Of a stretch of DNA of 64,000 bases, positions 46,930 to 62,932 are shown in pieces. Both the position numbers and the translations under genes were made by a program. Origin of the DNA: Hydrogenophaga sp. (lineage in GTDB: Bacteria > Pseudomonadota > Gammaproteobacteria > Burkholderiales > Burkholderiaceae_C). Location of the stretch: positions 1 to 64,000 of the forward strand of contig NZ_JAHVAB010000059.1 in assembly GCF_019264445.1 (NCBI RefSeq), given 5' to 3'. The stretch's first letter is position 1. Each line of letters begins with the position of its first letter. Below the pieces are notes generated by a model. That model was not told where the DNA came from. It searched no databases and saw only the letters and a list, made by a program, of their open reading frames with translations.

Positions 46930-47921
46930 CCCCGAATCGCCAAGGCGCGCTGTCGCGCCTGCTCTTGCTGGCTTGCGCTGGCGCCGGTCTGTTGATGCCC
47001 TCGCTGTCGTCTGCACAGGACTATCCCAAACGACCCATCACCGCGGTGGTGCCCGTGGCCGCAGGCGGTGCCTTCGATGCCCTGGCCCGTGCCTGGGCCG
47101 ACTACCTGAGCAAGTCCATGGGCACGGCGGTGGTGGTCGACAACAAGACCGGTGCCAACGGCAGCGTGGCGGCCACCTATGTGGCCAAGCAACCCGCCGA
47201 CGGCTACACGCTGTTGTTCGGCAGCACCTCGAACATGTCGCTCAACCCGTTTTCCTACAAGTCGCTGACCTACAACCCGACGCGCGACTTTGACCCGGTG
47301 CTCATGCTCGGCAGCTCCAGCCAGGTGCTGGTGGCCCACCCGGGCTCAGGCATCAAGTCGCTGGACGATCTCGTGCGCCTGGCCAAGGCCAAACCGGGGA
47401 CCATCAACTTCGGTTCCGCCGGCAAGGGGAACTCCACGCACCTCTACGTCGAATTCGTGGCGCAACACTTTGGCCTGGATCTGGTGCACGTGCCCTACCG
47501 TGGCGCCGCGCCCGCACTCATGGGTGTGATGGCGGGCGAGACGCAGTTCATGTCGGACGCCATCGTCACGGCCTCCACGCAGGCCAAACAGGGCAAGGTG
47601 ATCCCGCTGGCCATCATCGGCGCCAAACGCTCACCCGCGCTGCCCGAGGTGCCCACCATCCTGGAGCTGGGCGTCAAGGACTTTCCCATCGGCGGTTGGT
47701 ATGGCGTGATGGCACCCAAGGGCACCCCGAAGGCGGTGATCGATCGCCTCAACGCCGAAACCCGGAAGTTCTGGGCGGACCCCGGGGTGCAGGCCCACAT
47801 GGCCAAGATGTACATCGAGCCGATGGAAACATCGGGACCGGACGCGGTGTCGCGCATGATGCAGCGCGAAGCCGCCGTGTGGGGCCCGATCATCAAGCGG
47901 CTGGACATCCAGAACGAATGA
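46926..47921 (+). CDS. Bug/TctC-type solute-binding protein (tripartite tricarboxylate family)
   Basis: This 331-residue periplasmic protein has a signal peptide (about 1-35, ending SSAQ). The Bug body follows, with YPKRPITAVVPVAAGGAFDALAR and the ligand-loop region GSAGKGNSTHLYVEF. Bug proteins bind organic acids. No TctA/TctB permease genes are near, so it is an orphan that must share a permease or act in sensing. It overlaps both neighbours by ATGA and may bind the substrate of the AtuA pathway. Confidence 0.92.
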   Translation: MTPNRQGALSRLLLLACAGAGLLMPSLSSAQDYPKRPITAVVPVAAGGAFDALARAWADYLSKSMGTAVVVDNKTGANGSVAATYVAKQPADGYTLLFGSTSNMSLNPFSYKSLTYNPTRDFDPVLMLGSSSQVLVAHPGSGIKSLDDLVRLAKAKPGTINFGSAGKGNSTHLYVEFVAQHFGLDLVHVPYRGAAPALMGVMAGETQFMSDAIVTASTQAKQGKVIPLAIIGAKRSPALPEVPTILELGVKDFPIGGWYGVMAPKGTPKAVIDRLNAETRKFWADPGVQAHMAKMYIEPMETSGPDAVSRMMQREAAVWGPIIKRLDIQNE

Positions 47922-49126
47922 GCCCGCACACCATGCCCGACACCACACCGCCAACCGCTGCCCAGGCCATCGCCCTGCCCACCGAGCACCTGCCTGACGG
48001 CGACGATTTCCTGATGTGGCCGCCTTGCCTGCAGTCGCACGGCTACCGCAATGTGGACCGCCTCTTTGCCACCCGTGTCATTGCGCGTGGCACGCCGCGC
48101 GAGCTGGCCCGTGGCCAGGAGGTTCAGGTGCAGGTGCCCGTCGGCGGCCATGCGCTGTCGCTCGGCCAGTTCATGGACCGCAACAACGTCGCCGGCCTGC
48201 TGGTGATGCGCGACGCTGCGGTGGTGCTGGAACGGTATGGCCTGGGGCTGCGCGCCGACGAGCGCTGGAGCACGATGTCCACCGTCAAGTCCATGACGGC
48301 CATGCTGGTGGGCGCTGCGGTGGGCGATGGCGCGATTGCCGACATCGCCGACCCGGTCACGCACTACCTGCCGCAGCTGACCGGCTCGGTCTACGACGGC
48401 GTGACCGTGCAACAGCTCATGACCATGTCGTCGGGCGTGCGCTGGTCGGAGGAATACGCCGACCGCGATTCCGACGTGAACCGCTACAGCCGCTCGCTCG
48501 CGGGCAAGGTCCCTGGCGGCGTGCTGCAGCTCATGCGAGGTCTGCAGCGCGCGGAGCCGGCGGGCACCACCTGGCGCTACAACACGGGCGACACCTACCT
48601 GCTGGGCGCGCTGGTGTGCGCCGCCACCGCCATGCCGCTGGCGACCTACATGTCGCAGCGCATCTGGCAGCCCTGCGGCATGGAGTTCGACGCCTACTAC
48701 ACGCTGGAGAGCGACGACGGCACCGAGATCGGTGGCAGCCGCGCAGGCATGGCGCTGCGCGACATCGGCCGCTTCGCGCAGCTGGTGCTCAACGATGGCG
48801 TGACCAGCCAGGGCGAGCGGGTGCTGCCGCAGGGCTGGGTGGATGCGGCAGCCACACCGGCATTCGCGCTGCCCGACGAGTCGCAACGCAGCCCGCACCG
48901 GCGCACGCTCGGACTGGTGGCGTACGGCTACAGCTGGTGGCTGGACAACGACGGTGGCATGTGGGCGCTGGGCCACTGCGGCCAGCGCATCTACATCCAT
49001 CGCCGCGAGCGCCTGGCGGTGGTGCAGCTCGCGGTGTACCCCGAGCCGCAGCACGCCAGCGCGCGCGAGCCTGACCGTGACGCGCAGCTGGCCAGCCTGA
49101 TCCGCGCGCTGCGCCGCGCCAGCTAG
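47918..49126 (+). CDS. Serine hydrolase (beta-lactamase/class C esterase family)
   Basis: This 402-residue protein has the Ser-x-x-Lys site STVK (Ser121-Lys124), then a YNT in RYNTGDTY (the YxN position). A late GHCG stands where KTG is in beta-lactamases; H-x-G is typical of esterases in this family (EstB type). No signal peptide is seen. It could split an ester or lactone produced by the operon. It is the last gene, joined by ATGA overlap. Confidence 0.85.
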   Translation: MSPHTMPDTTPPTAAQAIALPTEHLPDGDDFLMWPPCLQSHGYRNVDRLFATRVIARGTPRELARGQEVQVQVPVGGHALSLGQFMDRNNVAGLLVMRDAAVVLERYGLGLRADERWSTMSTVKSMTAMLVGAAVGDGAIADIADPVTHYLPQLTGSVYDGVTVQQLMTMSSGVRWSEEYADRDSDVNRYSRSLAGKVPGGVLQLMRGLQRAEPAGTTWRYNTGDTYLLGALVCAATAMPLATYMSQRIWQPCGMEFDAYYTLESDDGTEIGGSRAGMALRDIGRFAQLVLNDGVTSQGERVLPQGWVDAAATPAFALPDESQRSPHRRTLGLVAYGYSWWLDNDGGMWALGHCGQRIYIHRRERLAVVQLAVYPEPQHASAREPDRDAQLASLIRALRRAS

Positions 49127-53762: not shown

Positions 53763-54731
53763 TTATTCGACACGGATCTTGCCCTCGGTGACGATCTTCT
53801 GCGAGCGCGCCATGTCTTCCGTCTGGAACTTCACGAAGTCCTCGACGCTGCCGGGCGTGAGCAGCAGACCTTGGGGCGTGAGCTTCTCGCGCATGTCGCT
53901 GGCCAGGGCCTTGTTCACCTCGGCATTGAGACGGTGGGCAATGTCGGCCGGCAGGCCGGCCGGGCCCCACAGGCCGTACCAGCTGTAGAACTCGTAGCCC
54001 GGAATCGTTTCGGCCACGGTGGGCACGTCGGGCAGGCTGGCCGCGCGCTGGGCCGAGGTGACGGCCACCACGCGCAGCATGCCGTTGCGGTGGTATTGCA
54101 GCGAGCCCAGGATGGGGTCGACGAAGCCGTCGATCTGTCCGCCGATCAGGTCCTGGAAGGCCGGCGCCGTGCCCTTGTACGGCACGATGAGGTAGTCCAG
54201 GTTGCCCGCGCGCTTGAGCAGCTCGGTGGAGAGGTGACCGGCCGAGCCGATGGAGCCGACAGCGAACTTCATGTCGCCAGGGCGCGCCTTGGCGTAGGCC
54301 AGCAGGGACTTGATGTCGGTGATGGGCAGGTTCTTGTTGATCGCCACCGACAGCGGCGCCTTGGCCACCAGCGCCACCGGCGTGAAGTCCTTGGTCACCG
54401 TGTAGGGCACCGACTTCATCGTCATCGGCGCCGTGGTGAAGGTCGATGCGTTGAACAACAGGGTGTAGCCATCGGGCGTGGCCTTGGCCACCGCGTCGCC
54501 ACCAATCACCCCGTTGCCGCCGGCCTTGTTTTCCACGATGAAGGTCTGGCCCATCTGCTCGCTCAGCTTTTGCGCGAGCATGCGGCCCACGGTGTCCAGC
54601 GTGCCGCCCGGCGGGAACGGGATCACCATGCGCACGGTGCGGTTGGGATAGGTCTGGGCGAGCGCGCTGGTGGCGGCGGCCCCCAGCACGGCGGCGGCCA
54701 GCAGGCCCCGGATGAAGTGATGGCGTTGCAT
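53763..54731 (-). CDS. Bug/TctC-type solute-binding protein
   Basis: This 322-residue periplasmic protein has a signal peptide (MQRHHFIRGLLAAAVLGAAA, cut after SALA at about 25). The Bug body follows with YPNRTVRMVIPFPPGGTLDTVGR and AVGSIGSAGHLSTELLKRA. It is the second orphan Bug protein of the window, without TctA/TctB genes. It probably binds the acid that the operon degrades. Confidence 0.92.
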   Translation of the reverse strand: MQRHHFIRGLLAAAVLGAAATSALAQTYPNRTVRMVIPFPPGGTLDTVGRMLAQKLSEQMGQTFIVENKAGGNGVIGGDAVAKATPDGYTLLFNASTFTTAPMTMKSVPYTVTKDFTPVALVAKAPLSVAINKNLPITDIKSLLAYAKARPGDMKFAVGSIGSAGHLSTELLKRAGNLDYLIVPYKGTAPAFQDLIGGQIDGFVDPILGSLQYHRNGMLRVVAVTSAQRAASLPDVPTVAETIPGYEFYSWYGLWGPAGLPADIAHRLNAEVNKALASDMREKLTPQGLLLTPGSVEDFVKFQTEDMARSQKIVTEGKIRVE

Positions 54732-54786
54732 GTCTTGTCTCCTGTTGTTGAATGGAAAGGCAATCGAAAGCGGTGCCGTGTGCGCC

Positions 54787-55725
54787 TCAGCGCTTGAGCA
54801 GCCCGGCCTGCTGCACGGCCGCGCGCAGCACGGCGGTCTCGTGCGCGTTGGGCGCCTCGGTGGGCGGGCGCACCGTGGCGTCGTCGATCACACCCGCCAG
54901 GTACATGCCGCCCTTCATGCGGGCGTGGGCTTCGCCCGTGGGTTCACCGCCGCCGTACACCGCGTCCTTCAGCGGTGTGATGACGGCCTGAACGGCCATG
55001 GCCTTCTTCAGGTCGCCGGCCTTCACCGCGTTCCACAGGTCGATGATGAGTTGCGGAATGAAGGTGGCGAAGCCGACCAGCGCACCGTCCACGCCCTGCA
55101 CCATCGAGGCCAGCAGGTATTCGTCGTGGCAGGTGAGGATGGCCTTGCCGGCATCGGCCTCGCGGATCGCCTGGATGTCGCGGGCGTACTTGTTCATGTC
55201 GCGCTGGCCGACCTTGAATGCCTGCAGGTAGGGCAGCTTCGCCAGCTCGGCGAGCAGTTGCGACGAGTAGGACGCGCGCGTCCAGGCGGGGTAGACGTGG
55301 CAGACCAGATCGAGCCCGGGCGCGGCCTTGTGAATGGCCTCGAAGTACTGCAGCGCGTGGCCCGGCGTGAAGCCAAAGCGCAGCCAGTGGTGCGGGGGCA
55401 TGACGTCAAGCGCCACCGCGCCTGCGGCCTGCGCGGCACGGGCATGTTCGGCGGCCTCGGCCAGGCCTTCGCAGACGATGGACGAGATGACCGGCATGCG
55501 GCCCTTGAGCTCGTCGGCCACGATGCGCGTGACCTCGGCGCGCTCGGACGGCGTGAGGGAGAACACCTCGCCGGTGTGCCCGTTGGTCATGATGGCGACC
55601 ACGCCGTCGTGACCCGCCAGCCAGGACGCGAGCTGGCGCAGCGCGGGCTCGTCGATGCGGTGGTCGGGGGTGAAGGGGCAGGAAATCGCGGGAATGATCC
55701 CCCGATAATTCTGGATCGATGGCAT
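54787..55725 (-). CDS. DapA-family aldolase/dehydratase
   Basis: This 312-residue TIM-barrel protein has the Schiff-base Lys171 in AFKVGQRD and Tyr145 in CHVYPAW, with TNGHTGE in place of the usual GTTGE. Family members split or dehydrate keto acids (DapA, NanA, KdgD). In a sugar-acid operon a keto-deoxy-acid role is likely, lysine synthesis unlikely. The start is the ATG of MPSIQNYRG. It is the first gene of the operon, divergent from the LysR gene at 55834. Confidence 0.9.
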   Translation of the reverse strand: MPSIQNYRGIIPAISCPFTPDHRIDEPALRQLASWLAGHDGVVAIMTNGHTGEVFSLTPSERAEVTRIVADELKGRMPVISSIVCEGLAEAAEHARAAQAAGAVALDVMPPHHWLRFGFTPGHALQYFEAIHKAAPGLDLVCHVYPAWTRASYSSQLLAELAKLPYLQAFKVGQRDMNKYARDIQAIREADAGKAILTCHDEYLLASMVQGVDGALVGFATFIPQLIIDLWNAVKAGDLKKAMAVQAVITPLKDAVYGGGEPTGEAHARMKGGMYLAGVIDDATVRPPTEAPNAHETAVLRAAVQQAGLLKR

Positions 55726-55833
55726 GGGCGTTGTCTCCGTGGAATGAAAATGCGGCGAGAGCGCATGATTGCGGCGCCCCGCCGGGGCGTCCAATACCCG
55801 AATCGCATACATCTATCTGCGCGCAAACACCCC

Positions 55834-56754
55834 ATGGGCCCTGGCAACCGACCCCTTGACCTCGAATGGCTGGAAGACTTCCTGGCGCTGGCAGAAAGTG
55901 GCAACTTTTCGCGCGCGGCGCAGGCGCGCTTCATTGCCCAGCCCGCGCTCAGCCGCCACATTCGCTCGCTGGAGGAATGGGTGGGCGTGGCACTGTTTGA
56001 CCGCAGCGCGCACCCCACGGTGCTCACCCCGGCCGGCCAGCGCTTCAAGCCACTGCTCGAAGACCTGCTGGCCCGGCTTGAAGCGGCGCGCATCAAGGCG
56101 CGCGCCGCGCACGACGAAGCCGCCATCGGCCTGCGCTTTGCGGCCACGCACCTGCTTTCGCTGGCGTTCTTTCCCCCCTGGTTCTCCCGCGTGGAGCAGA
56201 CGCTGGGGCCGCGCACGGTGCAGATGTATTCGAACAACCTGGAGGCCTGCGAAGACCTGATGCTGCAGCGCAGCGTGCAGTTTTTGCTGTGCTACGGGCA
56301 CCCCGCCGTGCCGGGGCGGCTGGAAGAGTCGGGTCACCCGATGTACCCGATCGGCGACGAGACGCTGCTGCCGGTGGCCGCCGCCGCGCCCGATGGCACA
56401 CCGGCTTTCCAGCTGGGTGCCGCGGCGGTGGACGAGCTGCCCATCCTTGCGTACCACGCGTCGTCCGGGCTGGGGCGCATGCTGCAGGCCTGCCTGCGCC
56501 CGCTGCTGGGCGGTGACGTGGCGCACCGTACCGTGTTTTCCGCGCACCACGCGGTGGTGCTCAAGAGCATGGCGCTGGAAGGCCGGGGCATTGCGTGGCT
56601 GCCGCAAAGCCTGATCGCCGCCGAGCTGCAGGGCGGCCAGCTGGTGGTGGCCGGTGGCAGCGAGTGGGCGCTGCAGATGCAGATCCGGCTGTACCGCCAG
56701 CCGGTGGAGATGACGGAGTCGGCCGAAGCGCTGTGGGCGCTGGTGGCGGCCTGA
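55834..56754 (+). CDS. LysR-type regulator
   Basis: This 306-residue LysR protein starts MGPGNRPLDLEWLEDFLALA. Its winged helix (NFSRAAQARFIAQPALSRHIRSL) and the LFDRSAHPTVLTPAGQRF wing are clear. It is divergent from the DapA-family gene across 108 bases and thus likely controls the sugar-acid/D-tartrate-type operon. It converges on the M14 peptidase gene. Confidence 0.9.
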   Translation: MGPGNRPLDLEWLEDFLALAESGNFSRAAQARFIAQPALSRHIRSLEEWVGVALFDRSAHPTVLTPAGQRFKPLLEDLLARLEAARIKARAAHDEAAIGLRFAATHLLSLAFFPPWFSRVEQTLGPRTVQMYSNNLEACEDLMLQRSVQFLLCYGHPAVPGRLEESGHPMYPIGDETLLPVAAAAPDGTPAFQLGAAAVDELPILAYHASSGLGRMLQACLRPLLGGDVAHRTVFSAHHAVVLKSMALEGRGIAWLPQSLIAAELQGGQLVVAGGSEWALQMQIRLYRQPVEMTESAEALWALVAA

Positions 56755-56760
56755 CCCGGT

Positions 56761-57675
56761 TCAGCTGGTCTTGCGCGCTTTCACGGGCACTGCCGGTGCG
56801 GCCTCGTCGGGCCGCACGCGCTCGACCATCCAGCGCTGCAGGTCCATCCACATCTGCCGCATCTCGGCATCCAGCGGCGTGCGCAGGGCGCTGGGCAGTT
56901 CCACCGTCACCACCGGCATGCCCTGGTGCACGCCGCCGTAGTTGCCCAGGCTGCCGGGGAAGATGCCGACCTGGTCGAGGTAGAGCCGCCCGAGCTGCGG
57001 CGGCGGCACGCCGGGGCCGTCGAAGTCGAGCACGCCGTACGGCGCATGGATGCTCACGATCAGGTGCGGCTGGAAACGCGCCATCTCATCGTGCAGGTAG
57101 CGCGACTCCGGCTCGGACAGCGGCTCCTTGCCGGGCCAGCGGCGCGGGTCCTTGCGGGTGCGTTGTTCCCAGTAGACCTTGGCGTCGCGGTGCCAGTGGG
57201 GCGTGGGAAAGTTGCGGTTGAGGTCCACGCCGTTGGCATTGACGCGCCGCGCCGGGCGCGACAGCAGGCCGTCGGGGTTGAGCGCAGGAATGAAGCGCCA
57301 GTGCGCGTTGGCCGGCGTCTGCACGGCGTGCTGGATCCAGTGCAAGGCCACCGACGCCGAGGACAGCTCATCACCATGGATGGCCCCCACCACCAGCACG
57401 CGCAAACGGGCCTCGGGCGCCACCACGTCGCGCGCGTAGAGCGTGCGGCCCTGCACCGAGCGGCCCACGGTGGGCTTGAGCCGGGCGGCCACACACAGCG
57501 GGCGCTGGAGGTTGGGCAGGCGGGCGACGAACGCCACACAGGGGTCGGGCGGTGCGACCGTGCGGTGGTGTGCGGGACCGCGCAACGGGGGGGATGCCTG
57601 CGCCTGCGTGCAGGCCAGCGCCAGCAGCGTGGCGATCAGGGGCGAGGCGAGGCGAAACCAGGGGGCGCAATGCAT
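56761..57675 (-). CDS. Secreted M14-family metallopeptidase (MpaA-like)
   Basis: This 304-residue protein has a signal peptide (about 1-28, ending AQAS). Zinc-ligand motif GAIHGDE (His100, Glu103), NGVDLNRNFP, the third ligand in SIHAPYG and the catalytic Glu in TVELPSAL are all present. It resembles murein-tripeptide amidase MpaA but is exported, so it may trim peptidoglycan peptides in the periplasm. It is the last gene before the nic-like block and not obviously part of it. Confidence 0.9.
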   Translation of the reverse strand: MHCAPWFRLASPLIATLLALACTQAQASPPLRGPAHHRTVAPPDPCVAFVARLPNLQRPLCVAARLKPTVGRSVQGRTLYARDVVAPEARLRVLVVGAIHGDELSSASVALHWIQHAVQTPANAHWRFIPALNPDGLLSRPARRVNANGVDLNRNFPTPHWHRDAKVYWEQRTRKDPRRWPGKEPLSEPESRYLHDEMARFQPHLIVSIHAPYGVLDFDGPGVPPPQLGRLYLDQVGIFPGSLGNYGGVHQGMPVVTVELPSALRTPLDAEMRQMWMDLQRWMVERVRPDEAAPAVPVKARKTS

Positions 57676-57713: not shown

Positions 57714-58985
57714 TCACTCGTCGCGCTCGCCGGCCTCGTACAGCGTTTCGCGGCCCATGCGGTCCACGATGAGCTCGGCCGTCCAGGGCAGCATGAGCGA
57801 GCCGCAGCGGCTGTCGCGGTAGAGGCGCTCGAGGGGCAGGTGCTTCATCATGCTTTGGCCGCCGCAGGTGCGGATGGCCAGCCGCGCGATGTCGTTGGCG
57901 CCTTCCATCACGCTGTGGTGCGCGGCATAGAGGCGCAGCTTTTCGTCTTTCGACGGGTTGGGCCGGGCCTCGCTGATGGCGCGCACAAACAGGCTCTTCA
58001 TGCTCTCGAGCTGGATGCGCATCTGCGCCACGGCGATCTGCTTGGTGGGGTATTGCCTACGCTTGACGGGCGGCTCGCCGGGCACTTCGCCGCGCAGGTA
58101 TTTCACGGTGAAGTCATACGCCGCCGTGGCCAGGCCCAGGTAGGTGGGCGCGAGCGTGAAGAACATGGCCGGCCAGGTCTGCGCGCCCTTGAAGTAGATG
58201 CCGCGCGGCATGAGCTGCTCGGCATCGCTCACGAACACGTCCTTGAACGTCAGGTTGCGGCTCACCGTGCCGCGCATGCCCAGCGGGTCCCATTCACCGC
58301 TGATGGAGACGCCCTCGCTGCTGGCCGGCACGCTGATGTAGAGCGTGTCGCGCGCGTCGGGGTGCTCGTCGCCCTTGTCTTCCGTGCAGAGGATGCCGTA
58401 GTAATGCGCCGCGCCCGAGAGGCTGGCGAAGATCTTGCGGCCGTTCACGAGCCAGCCGCCATCGACCTTTTTCGCGGTGGTGCCAAACGGCGCGCGGCCT
58501 GCAGCGGCGGCACTGCCCTCGCTGAAGGGTTGGGCGTAGATCGCGCCGTCGTCGACGATGCGCTGAAAGTGCAGCTCGCGCCGCGCGAGGTGTTCGGCGC
58601 GCTGGGCGTCGGTCATGGCAATGCCGTCGGCCAGCACGCCGGTCCACATGGTGCTGCAGATGTGCATGTTCCAGGTGAGCGCGGTGGCGCCGCAGAAGCG
58701 GCCGATCTCGGCGGCCACCATCATGTAGGTGGCGTAGTCGGCGCCCAGGCCGCCGTGCGCGGTGGGCACGCAGAGCTTGAGAAAGCCGGCTTCGCGCAGG
58801 TCGTCGTAGTTGGCAAACGGGAAGCTGGCTTCGCGGTCCCACTGCGGTGCGCGCGCGGCAAAGCGGTCGCGGCCCAGGGCGTGCGCGCGGCTGAGCAGTT
58901 CGCGCTGCAGCGGCGTGAAGGTCATGTCGCCCACGGCGGGCGTGAAATCGAGCTGGCTGGTGGTGGCGGGCAGGGGCATGTTCAT
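57714..58985 (-). CDS. Acyl-CoA-dehydrogenase-fold flavoenzyme, possibly a flavin monooxygenase
   Basis: This 423-residue protein has the acyl-CoA dehydrogenase layout: helical N-domain with LCVPTAHGGLGADYATYMMVAAE, middle domain WLVNGRKIFASLSGAAHYYG, and a C-terminal helix bundle. The catalytic YEGT-like stretch is missing: the end reads CGSLMLPWTAELIVDRMG. A flavin reductase gene sits across the divergent promoter. A two-component monooxygenase acting on an aromatic or pyridine ring fits better than CoA-ester oxidation. It is the last gene of the nicX-like operon, 19 bases after the hydrolase. Confidence 0.83.
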   Translation of the reverse strand: MNMPLPATTSQLDFTPAVGDMTFTPLQRELLSRAHALGRDRFAARAPQWDREASFPFANYDDLREAGFLKLCVPTAHGGLGADYATYMMVAAEIGRFCGATALTWNMHICSTMWTGVLADGIAMTDAQRAEHLARRELHFQRIVDDGAIYAQPFSEGSAAAAGRAPFGTTAKKVDGGWLVNGRKIFASLSGAAHYYGILCTEDKGDEHPDARDTLYISVPASSEGVSISGEWDPLGMRGTVSRNLTFKDVFVSDAEQLMPRGIYFKGAQTWPAMFFTLAPTYLGLATAAYDFTVKYLRGEVPGEPPVKRRQYPTKQIAVAQMRIQLESMKSLFVRAISEARPNPSKDEKLRLYAAHHSVMEGANDIARLAIRTCGGQSMMKHLPLERLYRDSRCGSLMLPWTAELIVDRMGRETLYEAGERDE

Positions 58986-59004
58986 GGGGTGCTCCTCGGG
59001 CGGG

Positions 59005-59817
59005 TCAGTGCGTGTCGCGGGTGCGGTCGGGCGGGGTCTCGCCCAGGAAGCCGAGCAGCGCCGCGTCGAACTCGTCGGGGGCTTCCAGGTTGGTGAGGTG
59101 GCCGATGCCGGGTAGCTCCACATAGCGCGAGCGAGGAATGGCCGCGGCCATCTGCTGCATGACCGACGGCGCGGCCACGCGGTCGAACTCACCGCCAATG
59201 AGCAGGGTGGGCACGCCGATGCCGGCGAGCGCGGCCTGGCGGTCGAAGGTGACGAGGCAGTCGAGCGCGCGGCGGTAGGTGGCCGCGGGCACGCCGGCCA
59301 TGCAGTGCTCGGCCAGCCGCGCGCCTTCGGGCAGCGAGCCCGGGCCCACCATCTGCGGCACCAGCTTGCGCGCCACGTCGGCCATGGTCTGACCCGCGTC
59401 CAGCGGTGCCGTGCGCTGGGCAATGAACTGCTGCGCCCAGGCGTCGGCGCTGCGGCCGTCGGTGCGCTTGCCGAAGGCGGCCGAGGTGGCGCTGAGCACC
59501 AGCCGGCTCACGCGTCCGGGGTGGCGCGCCACCACCTCCTGCGCCACCATGCCGCCCATGCTGTGGCCCACGAGCACCACGTGCTCGCACTGCAGCGCGT
59601 CGATGAGGTCGATGCAGCTTTGCGCCAGCCCCTTGAACGTGTAGGGCTCGATGGGCGCGCTGTGGCCGTAGCCCGGCATGTCCCAGGCCACCGCACGGTA
59701 GCCCGCGCCCGCCAGCGTTTCCACCTGCGGCGCAAAGGCCACATGGCCGCCGCCAATGCCGTGCAGCATCAGCACCGTGGTGGGGCCGCTGCCCAGGGTG
59801 GTGAACTTCGGGATCAT
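59005..59817 (-). CDS. Alpha/beta hydrolase (NicD-like by context)
   Basis: This 270-residue hydrolase has VLMLHGIGGGHVAFAPQ for the oxyanion hole, nucleophile Ser86 in VGHSMGG, an Asp in GGEFDRV and His in GIGHLTNLE. In nicotinate-type pathways an alpha/beta hydrolase (NicD) deformylates N-formylmaleamate, the product of NicX. Its start overlaps the NicX-like gene by four bases (ATGA), strongly suggesting paired action. By sequence alone other ester or lactone substrates are possible. Confidence 0.88.
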   Translation of the reverse strand: MIPKFTTLGSGPTTVLMLHGIGGGHVAFAPQVETLAGAGYRAVAWDMPGYGHSAPIEPYTFKGLAQSCIDLIDALQCEHVVLVGHSMGGMVAQEVVARHPGRVSRLVLSATSAAFGKRTDGRSADAWAQQFIAQRTAPLDAGQTMADVARKLVPQMVGPGSLPEGARLAEHCMAGVPAATYRRALDCLVTFDRQAALAGIGVPTLLIGGEFDRVAAPSVMQQMAAAIPRSRYVELPGIGHLTNLEAPDEFDAALLGFLGETPPDRTRDTH

Positions 59818-60887
59818 GGGCGCACCACCTGACCGGCATCCACCACCACCGCGCCGTCCAGCGTCACGGTGCAGCCACGCAGGGGGAAGTCGAAGTGGCC
59901 ACGCGTGTGGCGGCCGGCCACCTCGTTGGCGCCGGTGCTGTAGAGGAAGTTGCCCGCGAAGGCGCGCAGCTCGGTGCCGTTGAAGTCGCGCTTGTCGTAG
60001 AGCGCCATGCTGTCCCAGCGAGCAGCGTCGTTCAGGCCGTAGCCCACGTGGCTCACTGCACAGGCTGGCGGCCGGGCGGCGGTACCGTCCAGCTCGGCCC
60101 ACGCCGCGTAGTGGCTGCGCAGCAGCTCGGCGTCCACGCCCTGGCCGTCGATGCGGGTGATGTGGTCGTTTTCAATGGTGAGCGTGATCGCGCGCTCGAT
60201 GTAGCGCTTGAAGGTGAGGTTCACGTCGCCCTCGGCCAGCACCAGCGTGCCGTTCACGCTGCCCGCCGCAGGGAACGCCAGCACCAGGCCGCCCGGCCAG
60301 TGCGTGAGCGTGCCCGGGCGTGTGGTGGTGCCCCAGTTGCCGCCCACCACCGCGCCCTGCAGCGAGATGGAGAGGTCGGTGCCTGCCGCCGAGCGCACGT
60401 GCATGGCCTGGGCCGCGCGCACGCGCCGCACATGGTCTTTCACGCGGGCTTCGGTCGCGTCGTCGGGCAAGAGGCGCACCAGCGCTTCGGGGTGTTCGTT
60501 GCTCACGTAGACCACGCGCGGCTGCGTGCTGCCGTTGCCTTGGAGGATGGCGGGCAGTTCGGGCGCGTGCATCAGCCCTTCGACCGTGCAGTCCACCACC
60601 AGCGTGCTGCCGGCGAGCGCGGCGATCACCGGGGCAAGCTGCTGGAGGGCGTCGCTGGCGCCCGTGGAACGCGACACCGGCTCGCCCGCACTGAACACGG
60701 AAGGCAACACCAGCGTGAACGAGCGCACACCGAAGCGGGAAAGCGCCAGCCGGGCCAGCTCCAGAAGCACGGGGCGGCTCTGGGTTTCACCGAGAATAGC
60801 CACCACGTCGCCAGACTGCAGGGCGCAGCGGCGAAACAAGGTCTCGAAGGCGTCGATCCAGGCGGGTTCGATCCGCTCTTGCAGCAT
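59814..60887 (-). CDS. NicX-like 2,5-dihydroxypyridine 5,6-dioxygenase
   Basis: This 357-residue protein follows NicX along its length: MHVRSAAGTDLS, GTLVLAEGDVNLTFKRYIER, SHVGYGLNDAARW, AFAGNFLYSTGANEVAG and GHFDFPLRGC. The likely Fe(II) ligands are His280, His331 and Asp333, as the His and His-x-Asp of NicX. NicX opens 2,5-dihydroxypyridine to N-formylmaleamate. The family is close to thermophilic aminopeptidase T, but the conserved ligands favour the dioxygenase. It is the first gene of its operon. The promoter is shared with the flavin reductase. Confidence 0.8.
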   Translation of the reverse strand: MLQERIEPAWIDAFETLFRRCALQSGDVVAILGETQSRPVLLELARLALSRFGVRSFTLVLPSVFSAGEPVSRSTGASDALQQLAPVIAALAGSTLVVDCTVEGLMHAPELPAILQGNGSTQPRVVYVSNEHPEALVRLLPDDATEARVKDHVRRVRAAQAMHVRSAAGTDLSISLQGAVVGGNWGTTTRPGTLTHWPGGLVLAFPAAGSVNGTLVLAEGDVNLTFKRYIERAITLTIENDHITRIDGQGVDAELLRSHYAAWAELDGTAARPPACAVSHVGYGLNDAARWDSMALYDKRDFNGTELRAFAGNFLYSTGANEVAGRHTRGHFDFPLRGCTVTLDGAVVVDAGQVVRP

Positions 60888-60944
60888 GGTGTCTCCTTGT
60901 CATGGGTCACATCGCGCTGGGTCAGGCGATGAGGCCTTGTCATT

Positions 60945-60960
60945 ATTCATGAATTTTCAT
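60945..60960. promoter_or_regulatory. Candidate MarR operator in the nic-like divergent promoter
   Basis: ATTCATGAAT (60945-60954) is a perfect palindrome; ATGAA-TT-TTCAT (60949-60960) overlaps it. Both are in the 86-base gap between the NicX-like and flavin reductase genes. Such AT-rich palindromes are typical MarR sites, and a MarR gene is in the right-hand operon. Binding is inferred. Confidence 0.55.
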
Positions 60961-60973
60961 ATAAATTCCAACC

Positions 60974-61495
60974 ATGTCCCCAGCCCGATCCGCCGGCCTC
61001 CAGGCCCGGCCTCCAGACTTCTCGGCACACGAGTTCCGGGCCACGCTGGGCATGTTTGCCACGGGTGTCACCATCGTCACCGCGCGCACCGACAGCGGTG
61101 ACCTCATTGGCCTCACGGCCAACTCCTTCAACTCCGTTTCGCTCTCGCCACCGCTGGTGCTCTGGAGCCTGGCGCGCATGGCGGGCTCGATGGCCGCTTT
61201 CTCCAACGGCCGCCACTACGCCATCAACGTGCTCGCCGCCGACCAGCAAGCCCTGGCCGAACGCTTTGCGGCCCGCGACACCGACCGCTGGGCCGGCGTG
61301 GGCTTCACCGCCGGCATGAGCGGCGCGCCCCTGCTCGACGGCGTGGCCGCAAGCTTCGAATGCTTCAACCGCAGTCAGTACGCCGAGGGCGACCACGTCA
61401 TCTTCGTCGGCGAAGTCGAACGCTGCAGCCGCCGACCCGAAGCCTCCCCCCTCCTGTTCCACGGCGGCCGCTTCTACACGGAACACCCCTTGTGA
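60974..61495 (+). CDS. Flavin reductase (HpaC-like)
   Basis: This 173-residue protein has FRATLGMFATGVTIVTART, LTANSFNSVSLSPPLVLWSL and GAPLLDGVAASFEC. This is the flavin-reductase-like split barrel of two-component monooxygenases. It should make reduced FMN or FAD for the flavoenzyme at 57714. It overlaps the MarR gene by four bases (GTGA). Confidence 0.92.
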   Translation: MSPARSAGLQARPPDFSAHEFRATLGMFATGVTIVTARTDSGDLIGLTANSFNSVSLSPPLVLWSLARMAGSMAAFSNGRHYAINVLAADQQALAERFAARDTDRWAGVGFTAGMSGAPLLDGVAASFECFNRSQYAEGDHVIFVGEVERCSRRPEASPLLFHGGRFYTEHPL

Positions 61496-61974
61496 GCACC
61501 CGCCCAGCGGCCAAGCGCGGACGCACCGGGCCAGCCGCAGCGGCGGAGCGTGGGGGCCACTTCGTGAATGATTACTTGGGCTACCTGCTCGGCCAGGCCA
61601 ACCACGCGCTGTTCAAAGACTTCGACGCCGTGGTGCGCGAGGCCGGGCTCAGCAGCATCGAGTGGCGCGTGCTCGCCACGCTCAGTGGCCAGCCCCCCAT
61701 GCCGGTGGGCCAGCTCGCGCATGAGGTGCTGAGCCAGCAACCCACCGTGACCAAACTCGTGCAACGCCTGGAAGCGCAAGCCTGGGTGACGCTGCGCGAC
61801 GACCCGAGCGACCAGCGCCGCACGCTGGTGAGCATCACCGCCACCGGGCAGAAGAAGGTGACGCCGCTGATCGCCCTGGCCCGCGAGCACGAGGCCGCAG
61901 TGCTCGGCGCCTTGAGCGCGACCGAGGTGCAGCGGCTCAAGGACCAGCTGCGCCGCCTCGCCCAGGGCACCTGA
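61492..61974 (+). CDS. MarR-type regulator
   Basis: This 160-residue MarR protein starts at GTG 61492 inside the reductase stop. The winged helix is WRVLATLSGQPPMPVGQLAHEVLSQQPTVTKLVQRLE, with the wing at DDPSDQRRTLVS. The nicotinate cluster of Pseudomonas is also run by a MarR protein (NicR). It likely represses both divergent units until the aromatic ligand binds. Confidence 0.92.
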   Translation: MSTRPAAKRGRTGPAAAAERGGHFVNDYLGYLLGQANHALFKDFDAVVREAGLSSIEWRVLATLSGQPPMPVGQLAHEVLSQQPTVTKLVQRLEAQAWVTLRDDPSDQRRTLVSITATGQKKVTPLIALAREHEAAVLGALSATEVQRLKDQLRRLAQGT

Positions 61975-62026: not shown

Positions 62027-62932
62027 ATGACTCCACCGGCTCAACGCAAGACACACCTCGACTCCCTCGCCATCACGCTGCTCGTGGTGTGCTGCGCCTT
62101 CTGGGGTTTCCAGCAGATCCTGATCAAGGACACCGTGGCCGAGGTGCCACCGCTGTGGCAGGCCTCGCTGCGCTTCTGGGGTGCGGCGGTGCTGATCTGG
62201 CTCTGGAGCCGGGCGCGCGGCGTGCCGCTGTTTGCGCGCGACGGCACGCTCAAGGCCGGGCTGCTCGCAGGCAGCCTGTTTGCGGGCGAGTTCGCTTTCA
62301 TCTACCTCGGGCTGCTGCACACCAGTGCCTCGCGCCTCACGGTGTTTCTGTACACCAGCCCGTTTGTGGTGGCGCTGCTGCTGCCGCGCGTGGTGCCGGG
62401 CGAGCGGCTGCGGCGCATCCAGTGGGTGGGCCTGGTGATTGCGTTTGCTGCCGTGGCGCTGGCGTTCAGCGAAGGCTTCATGCACGGCTCGCCGGTGGCC
62501 GGTGCCTGGCTGGGCGATGCCATGGCGCTGGCCGCCGGCACGCTCTGGGGCCTGACCACGCTCACCATCCGCGCCACCCGGCTCTCGGGCGCCAGCGCCG
62601 AAAAAACGCTGTTCTACCAGGTGGCCGTCACGGCGGCGGTGGCGCCGCTGATCTCGCTGGCGCTGGGCGAGGTGTGGTCGCTCGACTACTCCGCGCGCGC
62701 CTGGGGTTCACTGGGCCTGCAGACGGTGGTGGGCGCGTTCGCGAGCTACCTCACCTGGATGTGGATGCTGCGGCAGTACCCGGCCACGCAAATGTCGACC
62801 TTCACCTTCCTCACGCCGGTCTTTGCGCTGGTGTTTGGCGTGGTGCTGCTCAGCGAGCCGCTGACCTTGCAGCTGGTGCTCGCACTGATCGGCGTGGCGG
62901 TGGGCATCGTGCTGGTGAGCCGGCGCGCCTGA
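62027..62932 (+). CDS. EamA/DMT family permease
   Basis: This 301-residue protein has ten hydrophobic segments in two EamA repeats (LLVVCCAFWGFQQILIKDT, and GAFASYLTWMWMLRQYPATQMS). DMT permeases export amino acids or related metabolites. It is co-directional with the MarR gene (52 bases), so it could be a transporter for the nic-like pathway, but it may equally be independent. Confidence 0.9.
   Translation: MTPPAQRKTHLDSLAITLLVVCCAFWGFQQILIKDTVAEVPPLWQASLRFWGAAVLIWLWSRARGVPLFARDGTLKAGLLAGSLFAGEFAFIYLGLLHTSASRLTVFLYTSPFVVALLLPRVVPGERLRRIQWVGLVIAFAAVALAFSEGFMHGSPVAGAWLGDAMALAAGTLWGLTTLTIRATRLSGASAEKTLFYQVAVTAAVAPLISLALGEVWSLDYSARAWGSLGLQTVVGAFASYLTWMWMLRQYPATQMSTFTFLTPVFALVFGVVLLSEPLTLQLVLALIGVAVGIVLVSRRA

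Follow-up and report, generated by a model that had tools for sequence, protein, structure and literature searches.

The window analysed here, a stretch of 64,000 nt from Hydrogenophaga sp. (contig NZ_JAHVAB010000059.1), contains towards its end a compact gene cluster in which a dioxygenase with the fold of NicX, the enzyme of the Pseudomonas putida nic cluster, lies together with an alpha/beta hydrolase, a flavoenzyme, a flavin reductase and a MarR-family regulator. Genes and control elements are arranged as follows:

57714–58985, minus strand: flavoenzyme of acyl-CoA dehydrogenase (ACAD) fold, predicted group-D-like oxygenase component, 423 aa (open reading frame (ORF) and fold)
59005–59817, minus strand: alpha/beta hydrolase, 270 aa, with Ser86-Asp212-His240 (Pfam Abhydrolase_1)
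59814–60887, minus strand: NicX-fold Fe(II) dioxygenase of a sister clade of NicX, 357 aa (PDB match to NicX)
60942–60971, minus strand: predicted sigma-70-type promoter of the dioxygenase operon, TTGGAA-18-AATAAT (consensus scan)
60949–60960, no strand assigned: palindrome ATGAATTTTCAT, predicted MarR operator within the promoter spacer (conserved in clade loci)
60974–61495, plus strand: flavin reductase, 173 aa, resembling the N-terminal domain of 4-hydroxyphenylacetate 3-hydroxylase (HPAH) C1 (PF01613)
61492–61974, plus strand: MarR-family regulator, 160 aa from GTG (PF12802/PF01047)
62027–62932, plus strand: EamA-type transporter, which probably closes the plus-strand operon (PF00892; co-transcription inferred)

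On the minus strand, the dioxygenase and hydrolase genes share a 4-nt ATGA overlap and a gap of 19 nt separates the hydrolase from the flavoenzyme gene, while dioxygenase and flavin reductase genes diverge across 86 nt. The MarR start, read as GTG at 61492, overlaps the reductase stop, and the EamA gene begins 52 nt after the MarR end. An initial annotation of this DNA had already described the ATGA coupling and the divergent reductase and MarR genes, which the ORF coordinates bear out, as well as the enzyme set, where Pfam backs the hydrolase, ACAD, Flavin_Reduct and MarR domains; with these genes as described, it passed over the EamA gene, the palindrome and the change in a substrate residue reported below. 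It had also proposed a comparison with relatives, and the gene set indeed recurs across 81 loci (the window and the best 80 of 151, many with contig ends inside), which came from a DNA-pattern scan combined with tblastn and from searches of genomes. In these, the dioxygenase family was found in 80, the hydrolase in 77, the flavoenzyme in 70, MarR in 68, the reductase in 63 and EamA in 55, a conservation of the cluster that exceeds chance. Cultured Hydrogenophaga species with the cluster include H. taeniospiralis (L050) and H. flava (L053).

The dioxygenase matched P. putida NicX in the PDB (E 4e-48), its only solved sequence relative, and its structure model superposes on that of NicX (7cn3). 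All the Fe residues, H265, S302, H318 and D320 in NicX numbering, are present in the window protein, and R293, His105 and His189 are also kept (roles as given in PMC7910607). The NicX-like dioxygenase of the initial annotation holds on both grounds, with the correction that the ligands are four and not three. According to the same paper, NicX Glu177 hydrogen-bonds N1 and O1 of 2,5-dihydroxypyridine; its equivalent in the window is Asn184. In an alignment of 129 homologues, residue 177 was not Glu in any of the 110 sharing 47–100% identity with the window protein (two pairs of these being identical proteins), being elsewhere in this clade Asn, Val, Gly, Thr, Ile or Ala. Among the 19 homologues with 28–39% identity, the comparison NicX sequences being only those still matching the window protein, Glu177 was found in 18 and Gln in one (L124).

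The tree, built from 77 of the 129 sequences, sets the 58 non-Glu rows apart by a branch supported at 100/100. This branch is long, with 1.56 and 0.13 changes per column on the two sides of the midpoint root; long end branches were flagged for L124, L206, L181 and L125. The rows nearest to the window dioxygenase belong to Hydrogenophaga sp. and a Comamonadaceae metagenome-assembled genome (MAG), and in this tree it does not group with the NicX enzymes of nic clusters. Judged by sequence, the window dioxygenase is thus a sister-clade cousin of NicX and not its orthologue. Two divergent proteins were met in these comparisons: a clade dioxygenase in which Ser takes the place of His189 (L181:9353-10399, genome G232), and L124 (G066:C1:4731000-4749500), a NicX-fold homologue of 30% identity with Gln177, Ala189 and a very long branch, whose genome also holds one clade and one Glu-type dioxygenase copy.

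Gene neighbourhoods were compared within 8 kb of the dioxygenase, taking as nic relatives proteins of at least 30% identity at E 1e-20 and using cut-offs of at least 200 bits for the flavoenzyme, 90 bits for the hydrolase and at least 50 bits for the reductase. Relatives of NicC, NicD, NicE and NicF occurred in 13, 16, 12 and 15 of the 18 Glu loci, respectively (query-source loci L121 and L122 counted in), and in none of the 110 clade loci. Conversely, flavoenzyme and reductase were each found in 96/110 clade loci versus 0/18 Glu loci, and the hydrolase in 103/110 clade loci. Eight of the 14 clade loci lacking the flavoenzyme stop at 1.2 kb or less from the dioxygenase on one side; the remaining six are L085, L091, L094, L110, L181 and L189, the last from a genome (G776) having the flavoenzyme on a different contig. 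Gene context therefore separates the Glu from the non-Glu dioxygenases.

The same association was seen at genome level. Clade dioxygenase and flavoenzyme (E ≤1e-80) occurred together in 46 of 147 genomes, the own genome included, the dioxygenase alone in none and the flavoenzyme alone in two (G035 and G056, 55% and 62% complete); in G032 the sole match was a 38% NicX-type protein, with no flavoenzyme. Among 398 genomes drawn across the phylum, again including the own, both genes were present in 18 and one genome had the two on different contigs; the dioxygenase occurred alone in one (G232, with the divergent copy that also lost His189) and the flavoenzyme alone (E ≤1e-90) in none, nor was it found in the genomes having only weaker NicX-type matches; these absences are not exhaustive, as at most 12 ACAD-type stretches per genome were scored in the set of 147 and 4 in the draw of 398. 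A class-wide draw searched for the dioxygenase gave any match in 15/369 genomes.

The flavoenzyme has an ACAD fold, and among solved sequences it comes closest to 5gj7 ('putative Acyl-CoA dehydrogenase') and 5z8t ('Flavin-containing monooxygenase'). No named member (HsaA, C2-HPAH, DszC) was matched, NCBIfam scores being far under the cut-offs. Two traits of group D two-component enzymes are present, the ACAD fold and a reductase partner in the cluster, and because of this flavin reductase a two-component oxygenase would be the likeliest role. A homologue of 56% identity was found on a Dolichospermum MAG plasmid (L225:9998-11245), in a stretch where none of its annotated neighbours is a dioxygenase, hydrolase or reductase.

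For the hydrolase, the Ser86, Asp212 and His240 columns were conserved in 25/25 aligned cluster hydrolases and the nearest NCBIfam models were of PcaD type, below cut-off. The initial annotation had called this protein NicD-like; orthology to NicD was rejected: compared with two NicD references (proteins annotated as alpha/beta hydrolases beside NicX), it showed 22% identity, with E 1e-4 at best, versus 56% between the two.

The reductase matched NF045919 (5e-49, 167 bits, below the cut-off of 340) and PDB 5zc2 (E 4.5e-37). The MarR protein, for which Pfam was run from 61495, matched HpaR and the C-terminal part of NF045919, also below cut-offs. Reductase and MarR are separate genes in the window and form one open frame in 12 of the 80 loci having both. 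Other fusions were encountered in the relatives: on an Aminobacter plasmid, a flavin reductase is fused to a LysR substrate-binding domain (L119:17701-18879), and L191 and L192 have proteins of about the same length; in L190 (5743-7704), an alpha/beta hydrolase has a Polyketide_cyc2 domain at its N-terminus and a TetR regulator at its C-terminus, with a 663-aa counterpart, by length only, in L182.

Scanning 60800–61100 for the sigma-70 consensus returned one promoter (shuffled mean 0.0), the only one predicted between the operons, and palindrome ATGAATTTTCAT sits in its spacer. The sequence ATGAANNTTCAT lies no more than 250 nt upstream of the dioxygenase gene in 76/106 clade loci, versus a random expectation with a mean of 0.035 and a maximum of 1 (200 sets with the same dinucleotide transitions), and it is also kept where the dioxygenases are 59–64% identical (L106, L107, L127, L131, L184, L185). 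The palindrome is thus a putative local operator of MarR. The own genome has two exact copies, the second on another contig within a 237-aa open frame, which was judged coding from its translation (codon score slightly negative), and a wider MarR regulon was rejected on this ground. Eleven more sites have one mismatch; four were read in sequence and the others covered by a frame scan. One of the four (L220, G000:C57:39747-39758) lies upstream of a [2Fe-2S] subunit gene, whose product looks like that of a xanthine-oxidase-type enzyme; the site appears to fit better a AATGAATG-TT-CATTCATT repeat, operator-like for another regulator.

Taken together, we consider it reasonably likely that the cluster is a compact, locally regulated aromatic ring-cleavage cassette whose ring is not free 2,5-dihydroxypyridine. 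Such a cassette agrees with what can be read in the DNA, namely the gene set, the fold of the dioxygenase with its iron site kept and the NicX substrate carboxylate lost, the sister-clade phylogeny, the co-occurrence of flavoenzyme and dioxygenase and the conserved palindrome. In the proposed scheme, the reductase would supply reduced flavin, with which the ACAD-fold oxygenase would hydroxylate an aromatic substrate; the NicX-fold dioxygenase would then open the hydroxylated ring and the serine hydrolase split the ring-opened product. MarR, bound to the palindrome between the -35 and -10 boxes, may keep the two divergent operons repressed until the substrate that it senses releases it, and EamA may move substrate or product. 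With Glu177 lost, and a small or apolar side chain often standing in its place, the enzyme probably no longer recognises an N-H at this edge of the ring as NicX does. The ring opened would thus probably be, in place of free 2,5-dihydroxypyridine, either a carbocycle with no N-H at that edge (1,4-dihydroxybenzene or aminophenol type) or a hydroxypyridine that bears substituents. A broader proposal, which we advance only tentatively, is that the NicX fold has a second branch opening a non-pyridine ring, e.g., of 1,4-dihydroxybenzene or aminophenol type, within a self-contained flavin-oxygenase cassette spread across Beta- and Alphaproteobacteria, where reductase or hydrolase has repeatedly been fused to MarR, LysR ligand-domain or TetR sensors.

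Several observations weigh against the proposed cassette. The flavoenzyme model has a mean pLDDT (predicted local distance difference test) of 80.6 and is weak at 155–159, 234–241 and 387–399; the best NCBIfam score is 132 bits versus a cut-off of 600, with no close characterised relative, and its structural neighbours are mostly dehydrogenases. In L187, L188 and L203 the reductase adjoins, and may serve, a second ACAD-fold protein, which in L187 (17306-18511) is HsaA-like (330 bits versus a cut-off of 450). Many of the 76 loci with the palindrome are close relatives, and it is absent in 30/106, for the most part from the more divergent branches (among them those whose regulator is a TetR or a fused one) and also from L085 and L094. 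An Asn at position 177 could still hold a pyridone, and the limited scoring of ACAD-type stretches given above applies to the co-occurrence. Finally, 39 mostly divergent loci were annotated (L109 and L128 among them being the same contig), of which 32 have the ACAD-like gene; in 21 of these its immediate neighbour is a gene of an acyl-CoA-ligase family (one representative being PF00501), which hints at a CoA-thioester step. This neighbour, the acyl-CoA dehydrogenases among the structural neighbours and the precedent of TdaE, an ACAD-like protein able to oxygenate CoA esters according to PMC8283759, would fit a CoA-dependent aromatic pathway, in which the ACAD-fold enzyme dehydrogenates or, like TdaE, oxygenates a CoA thioester and the dioxygenase still cleaves the ring. 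We regard this as fairly unlikely, given that a flavin reductase is present, that the ligase family was not seen beside the flavoenzyme in the window or its nearer relatives, and, more tentatively, that Leu399 occupies in 28/28 relatives the putative position of the ACAD catalytic Glu (register from the shared RDxR; the HMMER alignments to dehydrogenases end just short of this position).

The initial annotation had instead read the cluster as a pyridine-degradation locus, with unusual entry through the two-component flavin enzyme; in such a locus the dioxygenase would cleave 2,5-dihydroxypyridine and the hydrolase remove formate like NicD. That NicX is the sole solved sequence relative, that the model superposes on it and that His105, His189 and the iron site are kept supports this reading in part; the loss of Glu177 in all 110 clade homologues, the nic relatives missing from all 110 neighbourhoods and the low identity of the hydrolase to NicD make it quite improbable. 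Moreover, no NicE relative was found in the own genome, in a search run with no positive control. A Pfam search with PF17645 matched nothing, its controls included, and so carries no weight. The clade dioxygenase carries the annotation 'peptidase M29' in the plasmid records inspected, yet an M29-type aminopeptidase with unrelated neighbours is barely credible: at E 0.001 the window protein matched no Pfam family, peptidase families included, and this candidate was rejected, also in view of the residue alignment and model superposition with NicX.

An attempt to derive the substrate of the proposed ring-cleavage cassette from neighbouring genes failed, each neighbour type being confined to some branches: the acyl-CoA ligase, a glutamine-synthetase-like enzyme with an amino-acid permease, a gentisate-type cupin, FAH, a nitrilase-type hydrolase and an SsuA-like transporter. 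A 1106-aa neighbour, considered as nicotinate dehydrogenase, proved to be an amidoligase-type protein. An MpaA-like M14 peptidase (56761–57675, same strand) adjoins the cluster in the window, and its family is found in 39/81 loci, probably as conserved synteny and not as part of the pathway. At lower coordinates, a TctC solute receptor, a DHDPS/NAL-family lyase and a divergent LysR gene (53763–56754) form a separate, catabolic-looking small cluster, and a PF00144 homologue (47918–49126) lies about 9 kb from the cluster, beside a TctC-family gene; in eight relatives (L032, L035, L051, L056, L060, L062, L084, L087) a PF00144 gene sits between hydrolase and flavoenzyme. A xanthine-dehydrogenase-type molybdo large subunit (778 aa, L062:13235-15571) is encoded downstream of the cluster in L062; its family occurs in 18 loci and is located downstream in various Ramlibacter/Caenimonas loci.

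Among known systems, HsaABCD is a steroid ring degradation cassette composed of an ACAD-fold oxygenase, a flavin reductase, a ring-cleaving dioxygenase and an alpha/beta hydrolase, and the window cassette is alike in its make-up of enzyme types; it differs in that its dioxygenase has the NicX fold and that flavoenzyme and hydrolase score 66.6 bits to HsaA and 64.6 to HsaD, far below cut-offs. TdaE, set beside the flavoenzyme by its description as an ACAD-like protein acting in oxygenation, is, in PMC8283759, an internal flavoprotein dioxygenase of tropone biosynthesis. Riboflavin catabolism (PMC12746152) and a skatole cluster (PMC13101512) were considered and rejected, as both describe other enzymes. 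Among the open-licence matches listed, no title or abstract described this cluster. The sister clade hints at a catabolic pathway that is common among the Comamonadaceae and for which no description was found in the literature searched.

PMC7910607 treats NicX as the member that defines the subtype in its class of Fe(II) dioxygenases that cleave rings, and reports activity for 2,5-dihydroxypyridine only. The window enzyme shares its fold, Fe(II) residues, Arg293, His105 and His189, and differs in the Asn found for Glu177, in belonging to a long-branch sister clade, in the 28–39% identity of NicX-side proteins to it and in the lack of NicC/D/E/F relatives within 8 kb. With an intact iron site, no substrate carboxylate and a different, tightly co-occurring flavoenzyme partner, such a clade is easily misnamed. 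Lastly, HPAH C1 of Acinetobacter baumannii combines a reductase with a MarR domain, which restrains the reductase until substrate binds (PMC10816480), and a single family model has two domains, of which one hits the reductase gene of the window and the other its MarR neighbour. Here, however, MarR is a separate gene and the flavoenzyme is not C2 (40 bits); the reductase-sensor fusions of the relatives offer natural variants for the study of flavin reductase gating.

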